A stretch of 64,000 bases of DNA from a virus, in IMG/VR virus record IMGVR_UViG_3300020160_000289, positions 1 through 64,000 of that record. One strand, given 5' to 3'. Positions 1,397 to 60,144 of the stretch are shown piece after piece. The notes beneath the pieces were generated by a model. It saw nothing but the letters and a program-made list of their open reading frames with translations. It was not told where the DNA came from and did no database searches. Both the position numbers and the translations under genes were made by a program. Numbering within the stretch: the stretch's first letter is position 1; each line of letters opens with the position of its first letter.

Positions 1397-3322
1397 TTAT
1401 TTCACCAAACCAGCAAGACGTCTAATGTCTTCGTATTGTTGTTGTGCGGCCATCATGCCTTCGCGGGCTTGACCTTGTTGGCTTAAATGAGCTACTAATC
1501 TTTCGGCTAATGCGCCGCCTTGATCGCCAAACATTTTCCTACAATGCGTAACCACTCCAGTTTCGCCTTTTGGAAACTTACCTGTTTCACGGTCGTAAAA
1601 TGATTTTACCACTTCAGCAATTTCTTTAGTGTTTGGTCTTTCTTGTTCTGGTTCAGCATTGGACATTGTTTCTTCGCCCATGTGCTGTAGTTCACTCATT
1701 GTATCGGATAGGAAGTCTTCATCATAGCTGATTAAATGTTTTGCCTGCTTTGGGCTCATTCCTAGTTCTTTAATTAGGACCATACCAATGGCGCTGATTA
1801 GATCTTTTTCTTTAGAAGGATCATATTCGATTCCCTTATCATGTAGAACTTTAGCAACTTGGAATGATGTACGATCTTCTGGAGATTCTGCCATTGGCTC
1901 TTCAACCGGAGCCATTGCCGGGTCTTCAACCGGAGCAGGTGCCGGAGCAGGTGCTGGGGGTTGTCCGCCGAATAACTCGTTTGCCGCCTCTGGATCTTCT
2001 TTTTGTAACCATGCTACGATAGTAGGTGTTGGATCTGACTCTGGGTTCAATTCTGCGGCTGCTTCTAATGCTGTTTCCAATGAATCGTTATGTACGCCAA
2101 TACCTTGTAATGCTTCAATAGCACTAACGGCGTCAGCACCCAAAGTTAATCCGCTGTCTAACAAATCTTTTAATGCCATAATTGTATCTGGCTCTAATGT
2201 GCCTTCAGATACAGAGTGCGCCCAAGATTCAAATTGACTGAAGTCGTCTGTTGTTTCGTTAACTTCTTCGCTATGAACAGGACACGTATCTTCATCTTTT
2301 TCGCAAGTACATTCTTCAGAACCTTCGTCTACATATTGTTCTAAATCAACAGTTCCTGCTTCTTGCATGATGCTATGTATTAATGGAAAATATTGTGCTA
2401 AATCTTCTTTAAAGTTTCTCACAGTAAACTTTGATTTATAATCTTCCATAGTAGCTTGATCCATTACAAATCCATCGTCTTGTTGAGGAGCATGGTTTTC
2501 ACAGTATGCTTCGTAAAACTTTTGTCCTGACATACACTCAACTGTCTTGCGTAATTGATTTAATTTACCTTGACTGCGTTCGATGATTTCATTTACTTCT
2601 TGGTTCATCTGATCGTGTTGACCAACATGACGCTTAAATGCTGTAAGTTGAGCAATTTGCTCGCTCATCCCAATAATAGAATTGCCAACATCATCATATG
2701 GACGACCGCCGTTGGCCACGTGACGTTGCATTGCTTTAGCGCCTGCTAGATGAATGAACGGATATTTGAAACGCTCGCCTTCTGAGTTTTCAATAAAAAT
2801 TGCGCTGATATTTCTGCTACGAGAACCTTTTTGGTTTTCGTCAACTACCTTGCTATGACGAACACGTAGAAGTGTATTTTCTAATTTGCGAAGACTTGTC
2901 TTTGGGCCTCCGTACATTGCAGACTCATTCATGTTATTTTCCTTAGTTCCGTTTTGGGCCAGATATTGATAATCATTTTTGTTTAGATTGCCCTTTGTAA
3001 TATCTCTTGTATCAAATCTCAGCAGTCTACGTTTAGCAAAGTATCGCATTTCTTTTAAGAAATCGTACCACATATCTAACGTAATACTATCAACTCCTTC
3101 AGTTATACCTTGGCTATAAAAAACTTTCAGGCTTCCTAATTCACCTAGCGAGATGCTAACGCGACCCAAGGTATTGCCTTCTACAGCAAAGTCGAAGTCA
3201 AAAAATCGTGCGTCTTTTGAGTTATTTGTAATAGACCCTGATTCATCGCCCATTTCTACATTTTCGAATCGGCCGCGAATTTTGTCAAAGACGTCTTGTG
3301 CTATAATTTCGATGATATTCAT
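1397..3322 (-). CDS. Uncharacterised putative internal virion protein, 641 aa
   Basis: Function not recognised. The start is taken at ATG 3322, 10 bp after the gp17 stop; an earlier in-frame ATG at 3373 would overlap gp17. The N-terminal half is mixed charged sequence. A Cys/Glu-rich patch (EECTCEKDEDTCP) is followed by a Pro/Ala linker with PAPAPAPAP and an acidic, helical C-terminal part containing FYDRETGKFPKGETG, and the protein ends in DIRRLAGLVK. The end resembles that of the scaffold gp22 (DIRKLAGLK). Size, acidity, the position between gp17 and gp32 and the shared end suggest a head-internal or core protein. This is inference; no enzyme motif is seen. Confidence 0.7.
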   Translation of the reverse strand: MNIIEIIAQDVFDKIRGRFENVEMGDESGSITNNSKDARFFDFDFAVEGNTLGRVSISLGELGSLKVFYSQGITEGVDSITLDMWYDFLKEMRYFAKRRLLRFDTRDITKGNLNKNDYQYLAQNGTKENNMNESAMYGGPKTSLRKLENTLLRVRHSKVVDENQKGSRSRNISAIFIENSEGERFKYPFIHLAGAKAMQRHVANGGRPYDDVGNSIIGMSEQIAQLTAFKRHVGQHDQMNQEVNEIIERSQGKLNQLRKTVECMSGQKFYEAYCENHAPQQDDGFVMDQATMEDYKSKFTVRNFKEDLAQYFPLIHSIMQEAGTVDLEQYVDEGSEECTCEKDEDTCPVHSEEVNETTDDFSQFESWAHSVSEGTLEPDTIMALKDLLDSGLTLGADAVSAIEALQGIGVHNDSLETALEAAAELNPESDPTPTIVAWLQKEDPEAANELFGGQPPAPAPAPAPVEDPAMAPVEEPMAESPEDRTSFQVAKVLHDKGIEYDPSKEKDLISAIGMVLIKELGMSPKQAKHLISYDEDFLSDTMSELQHMGEETMSNAEPEQERPNTKEIAEVVKSFYDRETGKFPKGETGVVTHCRKMFGDQGGALAERLVAHLSQQGQAREGMMAAQQQYEDIRRLAGLVK

Positions 3323-4981: not shown

Positions 4982-6211
4982 TTAACGCTTAATACCAGCG
5001 GCATTTAATGCGGCTGCTCTATCGGCGTAACCTTTAACACCTGGCTTAATATCTTTAGATGCTTTACCAATGGCAGCTTTTACCTTAGGAGAAGCGTCAC
5101 TAGCATTAACGTGTTTCATGGTAACATTAGCTTGATGACTTGCCTCATCATACTTATTGTATTTGTCTCTAACTTTATCTAAGTCTTTACCTTCGCGACC
5201 TGCTTTAGCCAGAGCCTGCATACCTGCCTTGCCATACTTTTCATGACCTTTGGCCGCACGACTCATAGTTCTTTGTTCGCTGTCTTCTTCAACAAACTTT
5301 TTGTACTCGTTCATTAATTTAGATTCAAAAGCGGCTAACGGGTCAACTGTTTCTTCTTTCTTGTTATCTGGCATTGGATTAGAGCCGCTGTTAGCAGGAG
5401 TTGTAGTCATGTCTGCTGAACGAACTTTATTAATAATATTGGCAAAATCGTTGCCATCACCGTAACCTTTTGTTTCTGGTTTTGGAGCATTATCATAGCT
5501 CTCGTCTTTTTCTTCTTCATCGCTAGCAGAAGGACCGTCGCCACCGATTTTGTTTAGCTTGTCAGTTGTGCCTTTGATGGGCTCGTCGCTTGTAACTTTA
5601 ACAGGCATGTCTGTAGTAATTTTAACAGGCTCTCCTGTTCTAATTTTCTTCATCATGTCAGCAAGCTCATCAGAACCGCTGTCGTCTACTGCTCCGTCAT
5701 CGTCGCCAAAAGTTGGACCGCTAACTGCTGGACCACCTGTTAACACATCGTCACGCTCCATGTCGTGTTCCATACCATGATCGGCCATGTCGTGATCACC
5801 GTCCCGATCTAGGTCGCCCATCATCTTAGGCATTGGTGCGCCCATTGTTGGCATCATAGATTGACTAGGAACATCACCTTTAGCTAGATCCATAATGCCG
5901 CGCATCATGGCAACAATTTCACCTGCGTTACCAGCACTCATGTTTAAGCTAGCTGGTAGTGACGGCATTGGTGCGCCCATAGGCATCATTCCGCACTCTG
6001 CGATTGTGGATTCTGTTAATTTTGTTTTAAAACCAGACAGCGCTCTTAGATCTCCGAGATTAGGTTCTGGTAATTTTGGAAGATTAATATCCTTCTTACC
6101 TTCAGTAATCATTTCATCAACGTGTGCTGTTTCGGCAACCATTGGATTAACTACATTTGGATTGCCCTTGTCTAAGTCGGCTAATCTTTTCATTACATCT
6201 ATCATTTGCAT
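4982..6211 (-). CDS. Uncharacterised acidic virion/core-like protein, 409 aa
   Basis: No known enzyme domain. The N-terminal third contains the segment DLRALSGFKTKLTES (54-68), with a possible gp21-type site L-T-E then S, and Met/Pro-rich MMPMGAPMP repeats. The middle is very acidic (DRDGDHDMADHG and nearby) with repeated 'PVKITTD / PVKVTSD / PIKGTTD' units. The C-terminal part is basic and helical, with KYGKAGMQALAKAGREGKD and KVRDKYNKYDE. Mixed acidic and basic low-complexity composition, and position between a CTS-like protein and gp17, suggest a protein packaged in the head. Good Shine-Dalgarno AAGGAAA before ATG 6211. Another ATG two codons downstream is equally possible. Confidence 0.7.
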   Translation of the reverse strand: MQMIDVMKRLADLDKGNPNVVNPMVAETAHVDEMITEGKKDINLPKLPEPNLGDLRALSGFKTKLTESTIAECGMMPMGAPMPSLPASLNMSAGNAGEIVAMMRGIMDLAKGDVPSQSMMPTMGAPMPKMMGDLDRDGDHDMADHGMEHDMERDDVLTGGPAVSGPTFGDDDGAVDDSGSDELADMMKKIRTGEPVKITTDMPVKVTSDEPIKGTTDKLNKIGGDGPSASDEEEKDESYDNAPKPETKGYGDGNDFANIINKVRSADMTTTPANSGSNPMPDNKKEETVDPLAAFESKLMNEYKKFVEEDSEQRTMSRAAKGHEKYGKAGMQALAKAGREGKDLDKVRDKYNKYDEASHQANVTMKHVNASDASPKVKAAIGKASKDIKPGVKGYADRAAALNAAGIKR

Positions 6212-6213
6212 AA

Positions 6214-6792
6214 TTATTTTCCTTTGCCGCTGATCGGGCTATGTGAGCTAGCTTCTGTGTCGGTACTGTATTTTGCGGCACCTTCTGACGCAACTACTTC
6301 GCCCCTAGCCTTACGTCTTTCAGCCGCATCGGACTGAAGAGATTTTAAAAACGTTGTGTTATATTTTGCGCCATAATAGTCTGTTGAATCTATTTTTGGT
6401 TGTTCAGAATAGTTAGGATCATTTAATAATGCTCCTGTGCGCTTTTCTGTTGGTGTTTGATATTCTTCAAGTGGTTCGCCTGGTTTGCGTACCACAATAT
6501 TTTCATTAGTGATTCTTAAACCGCTAGAGAGATACTCTGTTAATTCAAACTGTGTTGTTGGATATTCTAATGTTACTTCGTATATAGTAACTTCTATATT
6601 TTTTAATTTTGGAAAATCTAAAGGCAAGTCTTGTATTGGCGTTTTGCCTATTTTCTTGAAACCAGCTACGCTGAAACGTTCTAATAACCCCTTTAGCTTT
6701 GCTTCATGTTCAGTGGTGCACTCACCCGCAATTTTAATGCGAAAGTCGTACGTTTTTTTAGATTCTGTTAAATGTTCTTTAAATGATCTCAT
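6214..6792 (-). CDS. Putative head-internal protein with capsid-targeting-like N-terminus, 192 aa
   Basis: Function not established. It begins MRSFKEHLTES, which resembles the capsid-targeting peptide of T4 internal proteins (MKTYQEFIAEA) and carries a gp21-type cleavage consensus (L-T-E followed by S). The rest is a compact mixed alpha/beta region (residues 15-105, with EVTIYEVTLEYPTT) and a charged flexible tail ending in Ser/Gly/Lys. An AGGAAA ribosome site precedes ATG 6792, and a perfect late octamer lies 17 nt upstream. Its stop is 2 bp from the 409-aa gene, so the two are probably co-expressed. The targeting role is inferred from the N-terminal match only. Confidence 0.68.
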   Translation of the reverse strand: MRSFKEHLTESKKTYDFRIKIAGECTTEHEAKLKGLLERFSVAGFKKIGKTPIQDLPLDFPKLKNIEVTIYEVTLEYPTTQFELTEYLSSGLRITNENIVVRKPGEPLEEYQTPTEKRTGALLNDPNYSEQPKIDSTDYYGAKYNTTFLKSLQSDAAERRKARGEVVASEGAAKYSTDTEASSHSPISGKGK

Positions 6793-57193: not shown

Positions 57194-58372
57194 TTAACGG
57201 AAAGAAACGTTTGCGCTTGTGATAGCAACTTTGCCTAGGTAGTCAGCTGCATTACCTAGAGAAGAAGCAGTGTTTGTCAACTCAACATAGCCGTAGCGTG
57301 TTAAGAAGCCAACTACTGGTTCGAATGTTGCTGGGTCTAGAACAACACCAGAACTCATTAGAGGAATGTAAGGGCAATAGAATGCCGCTGCATCAGCCTC
57401 GGAAGGTCCTTTGTAACCAATTAGACATTGGTTGTTGTCGTCTGTATCGCTTAGATAAGCATCAACATAGATTCTCATGCTGTTATTCAATGTACCAACA
57501 AACTTAGTGTTTGTAGGAGCTTCGAATGTACCTTCTGTTGTACGAGCAAATGCGCTTGTAGTAGCAGATTGTAGGATTGTCAAAGCCTGGTTAGAAATAA
57601 CTGCCCAGTTAGCAGAACCACGACGTGTACGCTGAGCGATCAAGTTAGCAACACGGTTGATCTGAACTGCCAATGCGGCATGCTCGTCACCAACGAATGT
57701 AGCTGTACCAGATACAGCGGCTTGGTCATAAGTTTGTTCAACTGTGCCTAGAGCACGTAAAGAACCTAGAATTTCTTGGTCGATTTCAGCAGTAATTTCT
57801 TGTGCTAAAGCGGCCATGATTTCTGCTTCGATGTCAATACCTTGCATAGCTTGAGCATCTTGTGCTGCCTCGAAAGTCCAACGAGCGCTTAGTTTACGAG
57901 ACTTAGCTTCGACTGGTGCTTTCAAGATTTGAATGCTCATACGCTTGCCTGGTTGGCCTTCTAAGATAGAAGTTGTTTGAGCTTTCGGTGTTGCATTGTT
58001 GTTACCGGAGTAACCAGCTGCAATCTTGAATGGGCTTAGTGCCTCATCTCCAGCTACCACGGAATCGCCGCTTGATGTATCAGCGTAACGAACACGTAGA
58101 GTATGGATTTGTGCTACTGGGCCTGTCATTGGTTGAACACCAACGATTTCGTTAGCAATAACGGTTGGCATAACACGACGAATAACTGGAAGAATAACGC
58201 GGTTTAAAGTTGCGATATTACCAGTGCTTGTAGCACCTGCGGATGCAGATTCTGCCAAGTACTTGCGTGTGTTTTCCAAGCAAACTGCCATTGAAGACTT
58301 ACGTGTACCGGATAGGCCTTCAAGCAGAGCTTCTTTGGTCTCTGACCATCTTTCATTTAATAATTGTGACAT
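57194..58372 (-). CDS. 23: Major capsid protein gp23 (short form)
   Basis: Forms the head shell after gp21 processing. 392 residues (T4: 521; cyanophage forms are usually nearer 460-470). The N-terminal propeptide probably runs to residue 41, where LAE then SASAG fits the gp21 consensus L/I-x-E. The core starts GNIATLNRVILPVIRRVMPTV and contains ANEIVGVQPMTGPV, KMSIQIL-like KRMSIQILKAPVEAKSRKLS, TFEAAQDAQAMQGIDIEAE and EITAEIDQEIL. The stretch between RVRYADTSSG and GKRMSIQ is only about 50 residues, so the T4 insertion domain appears missing. Strong AAGGAGA ribosome site; good terminator. Confidence 0.96.
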   Translation of the reverse strand: MSQLLNERWSETKEALLEGLSGTRKSSMAVCLENTRKYLAESASAGATSTGNIATLNRVILPVIRRVMPTVIANEIVGVQPMTGPVAQIHTLRVRYADTSSGDSVVAGDEALSPFKIAAGYSGNNNATPKAQTTSILEGQPGKRMSIQILKAPVEAKSRKLSARWTFEAAQDAQAMQGIDIEAEIMAALAQEITAEIDQEILGSLRALGTVEQTYDQAAVSGTATFVGDEHAALAVQINRVANLIAQRTRRGSANWAVISNQALTILQSATTSAFARTTEGTFEAPTNTKFVGTLNNSMRIYVDAYLSDTDDNNQCLIGYKGPSEADAAAFYCPYIPLMSSGVVLDPATFEPVVGFLTRYGYVELTNTASSLGNAADYLGKVAITSANVSFR

Positions 58373-58398: not shown

Positions 58399-59499
58399 TT
58401 ATTTTAGTCCCGCTAATTTGCGGATATCTAAAATATTATCTGAGCCTACCTGTGGCTGTTTGTTTTCACGATCTCCAGTTACAACTGCGCTTTCAGATAG
58501 CATTTCTGGGGCTTTCGCCTTTACTGCTTTCTTCATACCGCCTTCCATAACTGCTGGTAGGTATTTGTCAAATGCTTCATTCAGTTTTGCAGTCTGTACA
58601 GACTCTAGCAATTCTTTCATGATTCCCTTTTTGTCAGCACTTAGTGGTGCTAACAATTCCGCCATTACTTCTTTGCGATTAGCAACGTCATGAGCAACGC
58701 GGATTTCGCGGTCTTTAGACTCTACTAATTTTGCCTTTTCAGTAACAACAGATCTTGCTTCAGCTAGCTCTAGCTCTTTCTTTTCGATAACCTTTAACAG
58801 TTTTGATGTTTCAGATTTTTCGTTCAAGTAGCTTGTGCTGAACTCTTGAGCAAACGCTTCAAATAAACGACGACCGAATGAGTTTTCACGAGCTGAGTCG
58901 ATGTCTTCCTTGAGCTGTTTCATCTCTTTGGTCAATGTCTTCTTAACTGTTTCTTCAACAATTCCGGCGCTACGTTTAATAAACTTAGCTCTAACTTCTT
59001 CAAATTTGCCTTTAGCTTCGCGGACTAGACGAACTTTAGCTTCAGCTAAATCGCGCTTGTCTACAGCAAACTCGTTTATTTCTCTTGCTAGAGCAGTTAC
59101 AATGAACTGTTCTAACTTAGCAAAATTCTCACTAACTTTCTTACGATCGCTTTGGAACTCTACCATTTCCTTACCTAGCTGTTTTAGAATAAATGATTCC
59201 ATAACTTTGGCATCACTACCCATCTTGCGTTGATAAGCAACCTTAGCTTCCGCTAATGCTTTTTTATCTTCAGCAAGTTCAGCCATTTCAACGGCCAATC
59301 TCTCACCGACCATCTTGTCAAGTGCTTCAACCATTACGCTCTTATCATGAGAATAACGTTGAGCAAACTCTTCACGAAGTTCAGCAGTGACTTGGTCGCG
59401 ATTCTCTTGAATCTTCTGATTTAAAGCAGATTCAATCATAGACTTATCGTCTTCTGACATCATGCCACTTTCGACCAGCTTATTGAATGCGTCCAACAT
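58399..59499 (-). CDS. 22: Prohead scaffolding core protein gp22
   Basis: Scaffold of the prohead, removed by gp21. 366 residues (T4: 269), almost entirely charged heptad-like helix (for example EKKELELAEARSVVTEKAKL), with a N-terminal MLDAFNKLVESGMMSED and a C-terminal region with PEMLSESAVVTGD, which contains a gp21-type L-S-E then S site, and the terminal DIRKLAGLK. It is between gp21 and gp23 as in T4. Ribosome site GGAGACA. Assignment by position and coiled-coil composition. Confidence 0.9.
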   Translation of the reverse strand: MLDAFNKLVESGMMSEDDKSMIESALNQKIQENRDQVTAELREEFAQRYSHDKSVMVEALDKMVGERLAVEMAELAEDKKALAEAKVAYQRKMGSDAKVMESFILKQLGKEMVEFQSDRKKVSENFAKLEQFIVTALAREINEFAVDKRDLAEAKVRLVREAKGKFEEVRAKFIKRSAGIVEETVKKTLTKEMKQLKEDIDSARENSFGRRLFEAFAQEFSTSYLNEKSETSKLLKVIEKKELELAEARSVVTEKAKLVESKDREIRVAHDVANRKEVMAELLAPLSADKKGIMKELLESVQTAKLNEAFDKYLPAVMEGGMKKAVKAKAPEMLSESAVVTGDRENKQPQVGSDNILDIRKLAGLK

Positions 59500-59511: not shown

Positions 59512-60144
59512 TTAGGGTTTTAACCCATTAATAATATTAAGCATCGCCTCGCGGAGATACTTCTGGGCCTTTGGATCTTGTTTTACCTCTTGCGCCACCC
59601 TAAACGCTCTACTACCGCCTCTCATATTCATAAGATGCTCGTAGACTGGTGTAGGATAAGCTCCTGGCGCACTTGGCTGGGCAACAATGTCGACTGTGAT
59701 AATCTCAAATTCGGATACTTTACCGCTAGCCTCGTCAACGTTTCCGCTGCCTCGACTGCTGACGCCAAGTTTTACACCGGCTTCAAGCATAGTACGAACT
59801 AAATTGCCCATCGGAGTAGGAAGGACTTTCATCTTTCCATAACCATTAGGACCGTCCATCCACATATCTGTTATCATGTGTGACACACGGTCTAAATTTA
59901 CTTTTAAGTCATCTGGATGATCAACTTCGCCTAGAACACTATAACCATTTTGAATCTGGTCATTTAAAGTTTTAACGGCATTTGTAATTTCATCTACAGG
60001 ATACACACGCTGGTTAGCATTGCGTATACCGCCTTGGATAGCAATACCTTTTAGAAAAAGGTTCTTGCCATCTTTGTCGTCAGATTCTAAAACTACTCTA
60101 GCTTGATCAAAACTTAAATGTTCTCTTAGGTATGATAATTTCAT
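59512..60144 (-). CDS. 21: Prohead protease gp21
   Basis: Serine protease that processes capsid and core proteins during head maturation. 210 residues (T4: 212). Candidate catalytic residues are H76 in GEVDHPDD and S129/S130 in LGVSSRGSGNV, in the order His then Ser of the herpes-like prohead proteases. Additional family sequence: IQGGIRNANQRVYPVDEI and EIITVDIVAQPSAPGAY. Ribosome site GGAAATC precedes ATG 60144. It sits between the gp67-like gene and gp22. Assignment is secure. Confidence 0.96.
   Translation of the reverse strand: MKLSYLREHLSFDQARVVLESDDKDGKNLFLKGIAIQGGIRNANQRVYPVDEITNAVKTLNDQIQNGYSVLGEVDHPDDLKVNLDRVSHMITDMWMDGPNGYGKMKVLPTPMGNLVRTMLEAGVKLGVSSRGSGNVDEASGKVSEFEIITVDIVAQPSAPGAYPTPVYEHLMNMRGGSRAFRVAQEVKQDPKAQKYLREAMLNIINGLKP

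Follow-up and report, generated by a model that had tools for sequence, protein, structure and literature searches.

Do two uncharacterised proteins, encoded between a gp16-like gene and gp17 of a T4-like phage, belong inside its head? The initial annotation had suggested so, with ejection along with the DNA as a possibility, for a 192-aa protein whose start, MRSFKEHLTES, resembles the capsid targeting sequence (CTS) of T4 internal proteins, and for a 409-aa protein with the same kind of L/I-x-E site for the gp21 protease. We analysed the locus in a window of 64,000 nucleotides (the whole stretch of DNA studied here), which lies within a 91,548-base virus record of this phage. Both open reading frames were recovered, the first with the length and N-terminal peptide originally given and the second with RALSGFKTKLTES, in which LTES occupies residues 65-68 (a slash marks a predicted cut throughout):

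6214-6792, minus strand: 192-aa head protein of the PHROG 14802 family, predicted to be CTS-tagged (open reading frame, PHROG match, conservation)
6763-6792, minus strand: predicted CTS, residues 1-10, MRSFKEHLTE (conservation of residues 4, 7, 8 and 10; model helix 4-10)
6760-6771, minus strand: predicted gp21 cleavage site L8-T9-E10/S11 of the 192-aa protein (conservation and likeness to the gp23 and gp22 sites)
4982-6211, minus strand: 409-aa acidic head-protein candidate, immediately downstream of the 192-aa gene (open reading frame and family alignment)

In the direction of transcription, the minus strand carries gp18 (tail sheath by PHROG), gp19 (tail tube), genes for a 546-aa and a 123-aa protein, gp4 (head closure), the gene for a 160-aa gp16-like protein, the 192-aa and 409-aa genes, gp17, the gene for a 641-aa protein and gp32 (single-strand DNA-binding protein). 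The gp16-like protein was named from its place and from a weak match to the small-terminase family PHROG 445 (E 0.0044). A Shine-Dalgarno-like AGGA precedes the start of the 192-aa frame. Elsewhere in the window (20762-54062) lie genes for very long repetitive structural-type proteins, one of 2506 aa with a collagen-like G-x-T/G-A-T region and others of 1858-2444 aa. Outside the window, the same record encodes a 273-aa Ala/Gly/Gln-rich protein (G000:C1:67106-67927) whose start, MNIKELISEQQTDEG, is another possible short targeting N-terminus.

The N-terminus and family of the 192-aa protein

In T4 IPIII, targeting is reported to be governed mainly by residues 4 and 7 of the CTS and processing by residues 8 and 10, with Asp at position 10 blocking processing and not targeting (PMC9026906). 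In the T4 record, IPIII and IPII start with MKTYQEFIAE/A and IPI with MKTFKEF. The 192-aa family, with the consensus MKSFKEYLTE/S, keeps the same four positions that stand out in the IPIII mutational results. Among 90 distinct members, position 4 is Phe in 84 and Leu in 6, position 7 is Tyr in 75, His in 6 and Ile in 6 with other residues in the remainder, position 8 is Leu in 88 and Ile in 2, position 10 is Glu in 87 and Asp in 3, and position 11 is Ser in 85. Residues 5, 6 and 9 are variable in the same sequences, residue 9 varying between the near-invariant L8 and E10.

Since one of the peptide patterns used for fetching family loci included E10-S11, conservation was recounted on loci found without any 192-aa sequence, namely 41 distinct members (own copy included) whose loci were fetched solely by patterns from the 409-aa protein. 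In this unbiased sample [L/I]8-x-E10 is present in 38 of 41 members and D10 in 3 of 41 (two lineages), and after thinning at 70% identity 18 of 20 members keep [LI]8-x-E10. Residue 4 is Phe or Leu and residue 7 is Tyr, His or Ile in all 41, the window copy having F4 and H7. The three D10 members carry the residue that in T4 permits targeting without processing. The N-terminus is also retained as the rest of the protein diverges: in 768 pairs with bodies 20-30% identical, residues 2-11 average 60% identity.

A search for the motif in other proteins of related phages, proposed in the initial annotation, covered 1520 distinct proteins predicted from the fetched virus loci and returned the complete CTS pattern in 72, of which 71 belong to the 192-aa family; shuffled N-termini of non-family proteins gave 0.79 matches on average. 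The single match outside the family is the start of an unrelated 535-aa protein (L134:10439-12046, MKSLRDYLEES). Another unrelated protein, of 278 aa (L203:1501 onwards), has the CTS-like start MKTFKDYLREA, with no clear ribosome-binding site upstream. A search of 19 virus records for the CTS at the DNA level found nine places, seven in genes of the 192-aa family, one in the 278-aa gene and one in a gene for a 253-aa protein (L207, probably chance), and the reversed control gave one place. With the L203 and L207 matches to be set beside that control, it is chiefly the L134 protein, a thin basis, that suggests that such a tag may be portable between proteins.

We also compared eight named jumbo phages, taking for Atu_ph07 the ATG at L164:6001, which has GAGG upstream and lies 29 codons ahead of the deposited start, and for Phosso the second Met. 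Positions 4 and 7 hold a hydrophobic or aromatic residue in every one of these phages. L/I8-x-E10 is present in Atu_ph07, in 121Q and in CBB and GAP32, whose proteins are nearly identical, and E10 is absent from the other four (PA5oct, XaC1, SNUABM_47 and Phosso), PA5oct being without both L8 and E10. As for the Atu_ph07 gene itself (AUZ94910.1 in MF403008.1), its deposited start is probably 29 codons late, so the deposited protein misses its CTS-like start.

The 192-aa protein matches PHROG 14802 over residues 1-117 (HMM, E 1.2e-7), and the same family is matched by CBB_210 (9e-107), 121Q 557 (8e-106), Phosso (4e-16), PA5oct EST35_0202 (7e-8) and Atu_ph07 (0.002). The initial annotation had called the protein not previously assigned, which is only partly right, as this PHROG already carries the label virion structural protein, head and packaging. 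A tblastn search found it in 33 named phage records of 284-378 kb, every match beginning at residue 1. The order gp4, one more gene, the 192-aa homologue and then genes often called structural is kept in PA5oct, 121Q, CBB, XaC1, SNUABM_47 and GAP32.

Homologues occur in purified particles of two other phages. In CBB virions, Table 4 of PMC5259590 gives CBB_210 with 13 unique peptides and 60.5% coverage; CBB_211 (the gene right after it) and CBB_212 are missing from that table, and CBB_213, a possible counterpart of the 409-aa protein, appears there with 5 peptides. In the PA5oct record, an ESI-MS/MS note stands on EST35_0202 (the 192-aa homologue), EST35_0203 (in the position of the 409-aa gene) and EST35_0206 (the 641-aa homologue). 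Of the two phages, PA5oct is the one whose homologue has neither L8 nor E10. Because of this presence in particles, the 192-aa protein is probably an internal head protein that has been overlooked in such phages. The likeness of its N-terminus to a T4 CTS, noticed in the initial annotation, is borne out by the IPIII residue pattern, by a conserved L-x-E/S like those of gp23 and gp22, and by homologues in these two virions. The protein is nevertheless not a small basic one of the T4 IPI/IPII/IPIII class, as beyond residue 10 its charges balance (27 K+R versus 27 D+E).

An AlphaFold2 model built with 54 sequences has a mean pLDDT of 77.3 and a pTM of 0.51, with a poorly modelled tail. Its N-terminus forms a short helix (residues 4-10), with a mean pLDDT of 65 for residues 1-10 versus 89-94 in blocks of residues 11-50. 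Behind it lies one domain:

6487-6750, minus strand: predicted ferredoxin-like domain of the 192-aa protein, residues 15-102 (AlphaFold2 model and fold search)

The best Foldseek match of the model is ribosomal protein S6 (E 2e-4), and the best VIA-align row has Z 8.1 and rmsd 3.2 over 79 residues. Fold searches with this generic ferredoxin-like fold gave no function and no effector hint; above E 0.001 they returned phage proteins only, none with a named function. A weak row for an Ip7 internal protein (E 3.3e-3) was set aside.

Candidate gp21 sites and the 409-aa protein

The window encodes the protease that would process such a protein, next to its usual substrates, and the gp23 and gp22 sites named in the initial annotation are where it had placed them:

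59512-60144, minus strand: gp21-type head maturation protease (PHROG 207, E 1.1e-57)
58399-59499, minus strand: gp22-type scaffold, between gp21 and gp23 (PHROG 10922, to which PHROGs assigns no function; the homologues in 121Q, MIJ3 and BF are annotated as scaffolding protein)
58489-58500, minus strand: candidate gp21 site LSE/S of gp22, residues 334-337 (sequence)
58247-58258, minus strand: candidate gp23 maturation site LAE/S, 41/42 (sequence)

A bare [LI]xE[SAGT] is common, being found within the first 110 residues of 12 of the 55 record genes of at least 80 aa and within the first 20 residues of 4 of them; it therefore carries little weight alone, and we dropped the bare motif as evidence. 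The predicted gp23 sites of the window and four related loci read YLAE/S (twice), YLSE/T, YLTE/S and YLGE/A, that is [KR]YL[ASTG]E/[STA], and the usual form in the 192-aa family is YL[TAS]E/S. By its letters, the L-x-E/S of the 192-aa protein fits the candidate sites of the phage's own gp23 and gp22. In seven jumbo phages (SNUABM_12 standing in for SNUABM_47, CBB left out) gp23 and gp22 have predicted L-x-E sites at like places. As E10 is lost in four of the eight named jumbo phages though gp23 keeps L-x-E in the seven read, cleavage cannot be essential in every member of the 192-aa family.

The 409-aa protein is built differently:

6140-6211, minus strand: conserved N-terminal segment of the 409-aa protein, residues 1-24, MQMIDVMKRLADLD... 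(alignment; no CTS pattern)
6008-6019, minus strand: candidate gp21 site LTE/S, residues 65-68, within RALSGFKTKLTES (sequence, linker counts)

Its family comprises 41 distinct members, the copy in the window among them, and a 192-aa homologue is encoded at the locus of every one. They share a conserved N-terminal MQMIDVMKRLAELD, followed by a linker of variable length and then by a conserved ECG...SIN..A..G.E...ML..IM.LAG. The CTS pattern is found at the N-terminus of none of the 41 distinct sequences, the window copy starting with MQMIDVMKRLADLD. KLTES sits in the linker, which is much shorter in many homologues, and its place is not conserved.

Some site is nonetheless over-represented there. 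[LI]xE[SAGT] occurs in 22 of 41 linkers versus 5.2 expected from shuffles (13 of 30 versus 3.4 after thinning), and [LIV]xE[SAGT] in 31 of 41 versus 8.8, with 10 of 41 lacking any; these shuffle figures overstate independence, as the sequences are kin, and the wider site definitions were picked after viewing the data. A control stretch of equal length after ECG contains a site in 0 of 41 members. The excess supports cleavage somewhere in the linker and not at a particular place. Of the proposal that the 409-aa protein is a like head protein with a gp21 site, the over-represented site thus survives, while a CTS and a fixed position for KLTES do not. We put the chances that the 409-aa protein is a gp21 substrate at about even.

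Outside its own family the 409-aa protein had no match in tblastn against named phages or in Pfam and PHROG scans. Five jumbo-phage proteins, the CBB_213 group, were compared with a profile of 12 short 409-family members and gave a weak match (probability 18.9%, pair E 0.0012, 39 C-terminal columns). A similar YKKF tail and a short box described below suggest orthology, but with so weak a profile score we do not claim it. A C-terminal module, SRAAKGxEKYGKxGMxALAKAGREGxxLDxxRxKYxKY (residues ~317-357 of the 409-aa protein), recurs in the 641-aa family and in other proteins (L107, L109, L134 and others).

The LAG box

A second short motif, [I/L]xxL[A/S]G[L/I], which we call the LAG box, is common to the C-terminus of gp22, the C-terminus of the 641-aa protein and the linker of the 409-aa protein:

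58405-58425, minus strand: C-terminal LAG box IRKLAGL of gp22 (sequence)
1397-3322, minus strand: 641-aa head-protein candidate (PHROG 13484, virion structural protein; internal ATG at 3322, 658 aa if the upstream TTG is used)
1406-1426, minus strand: C-terminal LAG box IRRLAGL of the 641-aa protein (sequence)
6029-6049, minus strand: LSG box LRALSGF of the 409-aa protein, linker residues 55-61 (a similar box lies in the linkers of 21 of the 41 members)

The C-terminus of gp22 reads DIRKLAGLK, and a like box ends all 21 gp22 matches (12 distinct); in jumbo-phage gp22 it is present in six of seven, XaC1 being divergent. In the 12 distinct gp22 tails a predicted [LI]xE[SAGT] site always lies 24-31 residues ahead of the box (25 residues for LSE/S in the window), and a cut at this candidate site would release the C-terminal box. 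Among the 71 distinct frames listed for the 641-aa family (some cut by contig ends), many have the box at their end, preceded by C-terminal modules of very different kinds, and others lack it there; in the tails of 34 distinct complete frames that end in the box, no regular gp21 site lies ahead of it. In the 409-aa family, the box overlaps or directly precedes an L-x-E/S or L-x-E/G site in 15 of the 21 box-bearing linkers, as judged by eye. Nine best rows of a search with the 641-aa model against a viral library name no function save one "large polyvalent protein-associated domain".

At the C-terminus the pattern is found in 46 of 1520 proteins, 34 from the 641-aa family and 12 gp22, with 0.4 expected. 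Anywhere in the sequence it occurs in 117 of 1520, of which 95 match the 641-aa, 409-aa or gp22 queries (C-terminal module included) and 22 do not. In 30 shuffles of all 1520 proteins the box appeared in 15.2 on average and 22 at most, so outside the three groups it is near chance. Several small proteins start with a LAG box (MDELAQLKRLAGVN, MDIERLKILAGLE and similar; L110:5605-5820, L125:5990-6220, L127:1681-1899 and L128:2336-2554), as does the product of a 113-aa gene of Atu_ph07 (L164:9005-9346).

To our knowledge the LAG box has not been described before, and our searches of the open-access literature turned up no report of it or of a CTS in the 192-aa family. We infer that it may dock on the prohead. 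A broader and tentative idea, which we would not yet favour, is that head assembly in these phages employs two portable tags: the CTS at the N-terminus, and the LAG box, which would dock proteins on the scaffold-tail site of the prohead, with gp21 freeing the box in gp22 and the 409-aa protein. Should the LAG box prove to be such a tag, head cargo could be predicted and engineered in a new way.

Possible roles and known systems

We consider it rather probable that the 192-aa protein is a CTS-tagged head protein, probably processed by gp21. Its targeting, its cleavage and its location inside the head are what we infer from sequence pattern, conservation, conserved gene neighbourhood and family assignment; virion presence comes from the homologues in CBB and PA5oct. 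Residues 1-10 would act as a T4-type CTS that recruits the protein into the prohead core during assembly, with residues 4 and 7 responsible for targeting. The gp21 protease would then cut after E10 (L8-T9-E10/S11), and the freed ferredoxin-like domain and disordered tail would remain in the mature head. The 409-aa protein would be a second head-core component, probably clipped by gp21 within the linker that joins the conserved N-terminal segment to the ECG domain, with KLTE/S as the likeliest cut site in this phage.

The retention of the protein in the four named jumbo phages without E10 would also suit an N-terminus that is never cleaved, an ordinary helix of the folded protein conserved because the structure, or contact with a partner like the terminase or portal, requires it; its likeness to L-x-E/S sites would then be coincidental. 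Residues 12-24 are about as conserved as residues 2-11, and the gene lies in the packaging operon beside gp4, the gp16-like gene and gp17, both as this account would have it. It is made unlikely by the variation of residue 9 between near-invariant L8 and E10, where small residues stand as they do in gp23 and gp22, by the lower model confidence of residues 1-10 than of the domain, and, as thin examples, by the like N-terminus of the unrelated 535-aa protein and perhaps of the 278-aa protein. The same neighbourhood of gp4, the gp16-like gene and gp17 could instead mean that the 192-aa and 409-aa proteins are not internal but, in the manner of gp4, gp13 and gp14, join the head after packaging to complete it or to form its neck. 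Gene position alone does not separate this reading from an internal location; neck proteins would need neither a CTS nor a gp21 site, and no [LI]xE[SAGT] occurs within the first 110 residues of either gp4 or the gp16-like protein of this phage, which leaves a neck role very improbable.

The two proteins might, in a variant compatible with our preferred reading, be effectors injected to act upon the host, like IPI and Alt of T4, the CTS being described as the T4 route for packaging injected proteins (PMC9026906, PMC3012670). We rate this as improbable, given a family and gene order that are conserved, versus the plasticity of T-even internal proteins, a neutral charge and a generic fold. Indeed, the conservation of sequence and gene order across the family, and the neutral charge of the member here, set the 192-aa protein apart from T4 internal proteins and give it the look of an invariable component of the head, not of an exchangeable effector for injection. 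Read as a CTS-tagged head protein, it would give a probable role to a family conserved across CBB-, 121Q- and PA5oct-related jumbo phages and uncultured relatives, and would extend T4 capsid targeting to a conserved packaging-operon protein.

With IPI, IPII and IPIII of T4 the 192-aa protein shares an N-terminal tag of ~10 residues with key positions 4, 7, 8 and 10 and a gp21-type L/I-x-E site. It differs in its body, which is unrelated in the searches made, in its neutral charge and in being conserved in sequence and in place between the gp16-like gene and gp17, whereas the T4 internal proteins are described as basic and poorly conserved (PMC9026906) and their genes sit elsewhere in T4. PHROG 14802 is the same family, with a like gene neighbourhood in PA5oct, 121Q and CBB, but it names no function, tag or cleavage, and several of its jumbo members are without E10. 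In the T4 record gp24 starts with MAKINELLRES, and it is cleaved there. T4 gp23, gp22 and gp24, which are matured by gp21 with a cut after L/I-x-E (PMC9026906), are shell, scaffold and vertex proteins, unlike the 192-aa protein. Head proteins of phiKZ and SPN3US, as described in PMC7411985 and PMC9026906, likewise have jumbo-phage N-terminal propeptides removed after Glu, but these phages belong to a different group and their propeptides are long (124-130 residues in SPN3US gp53, gp54 and gp75).
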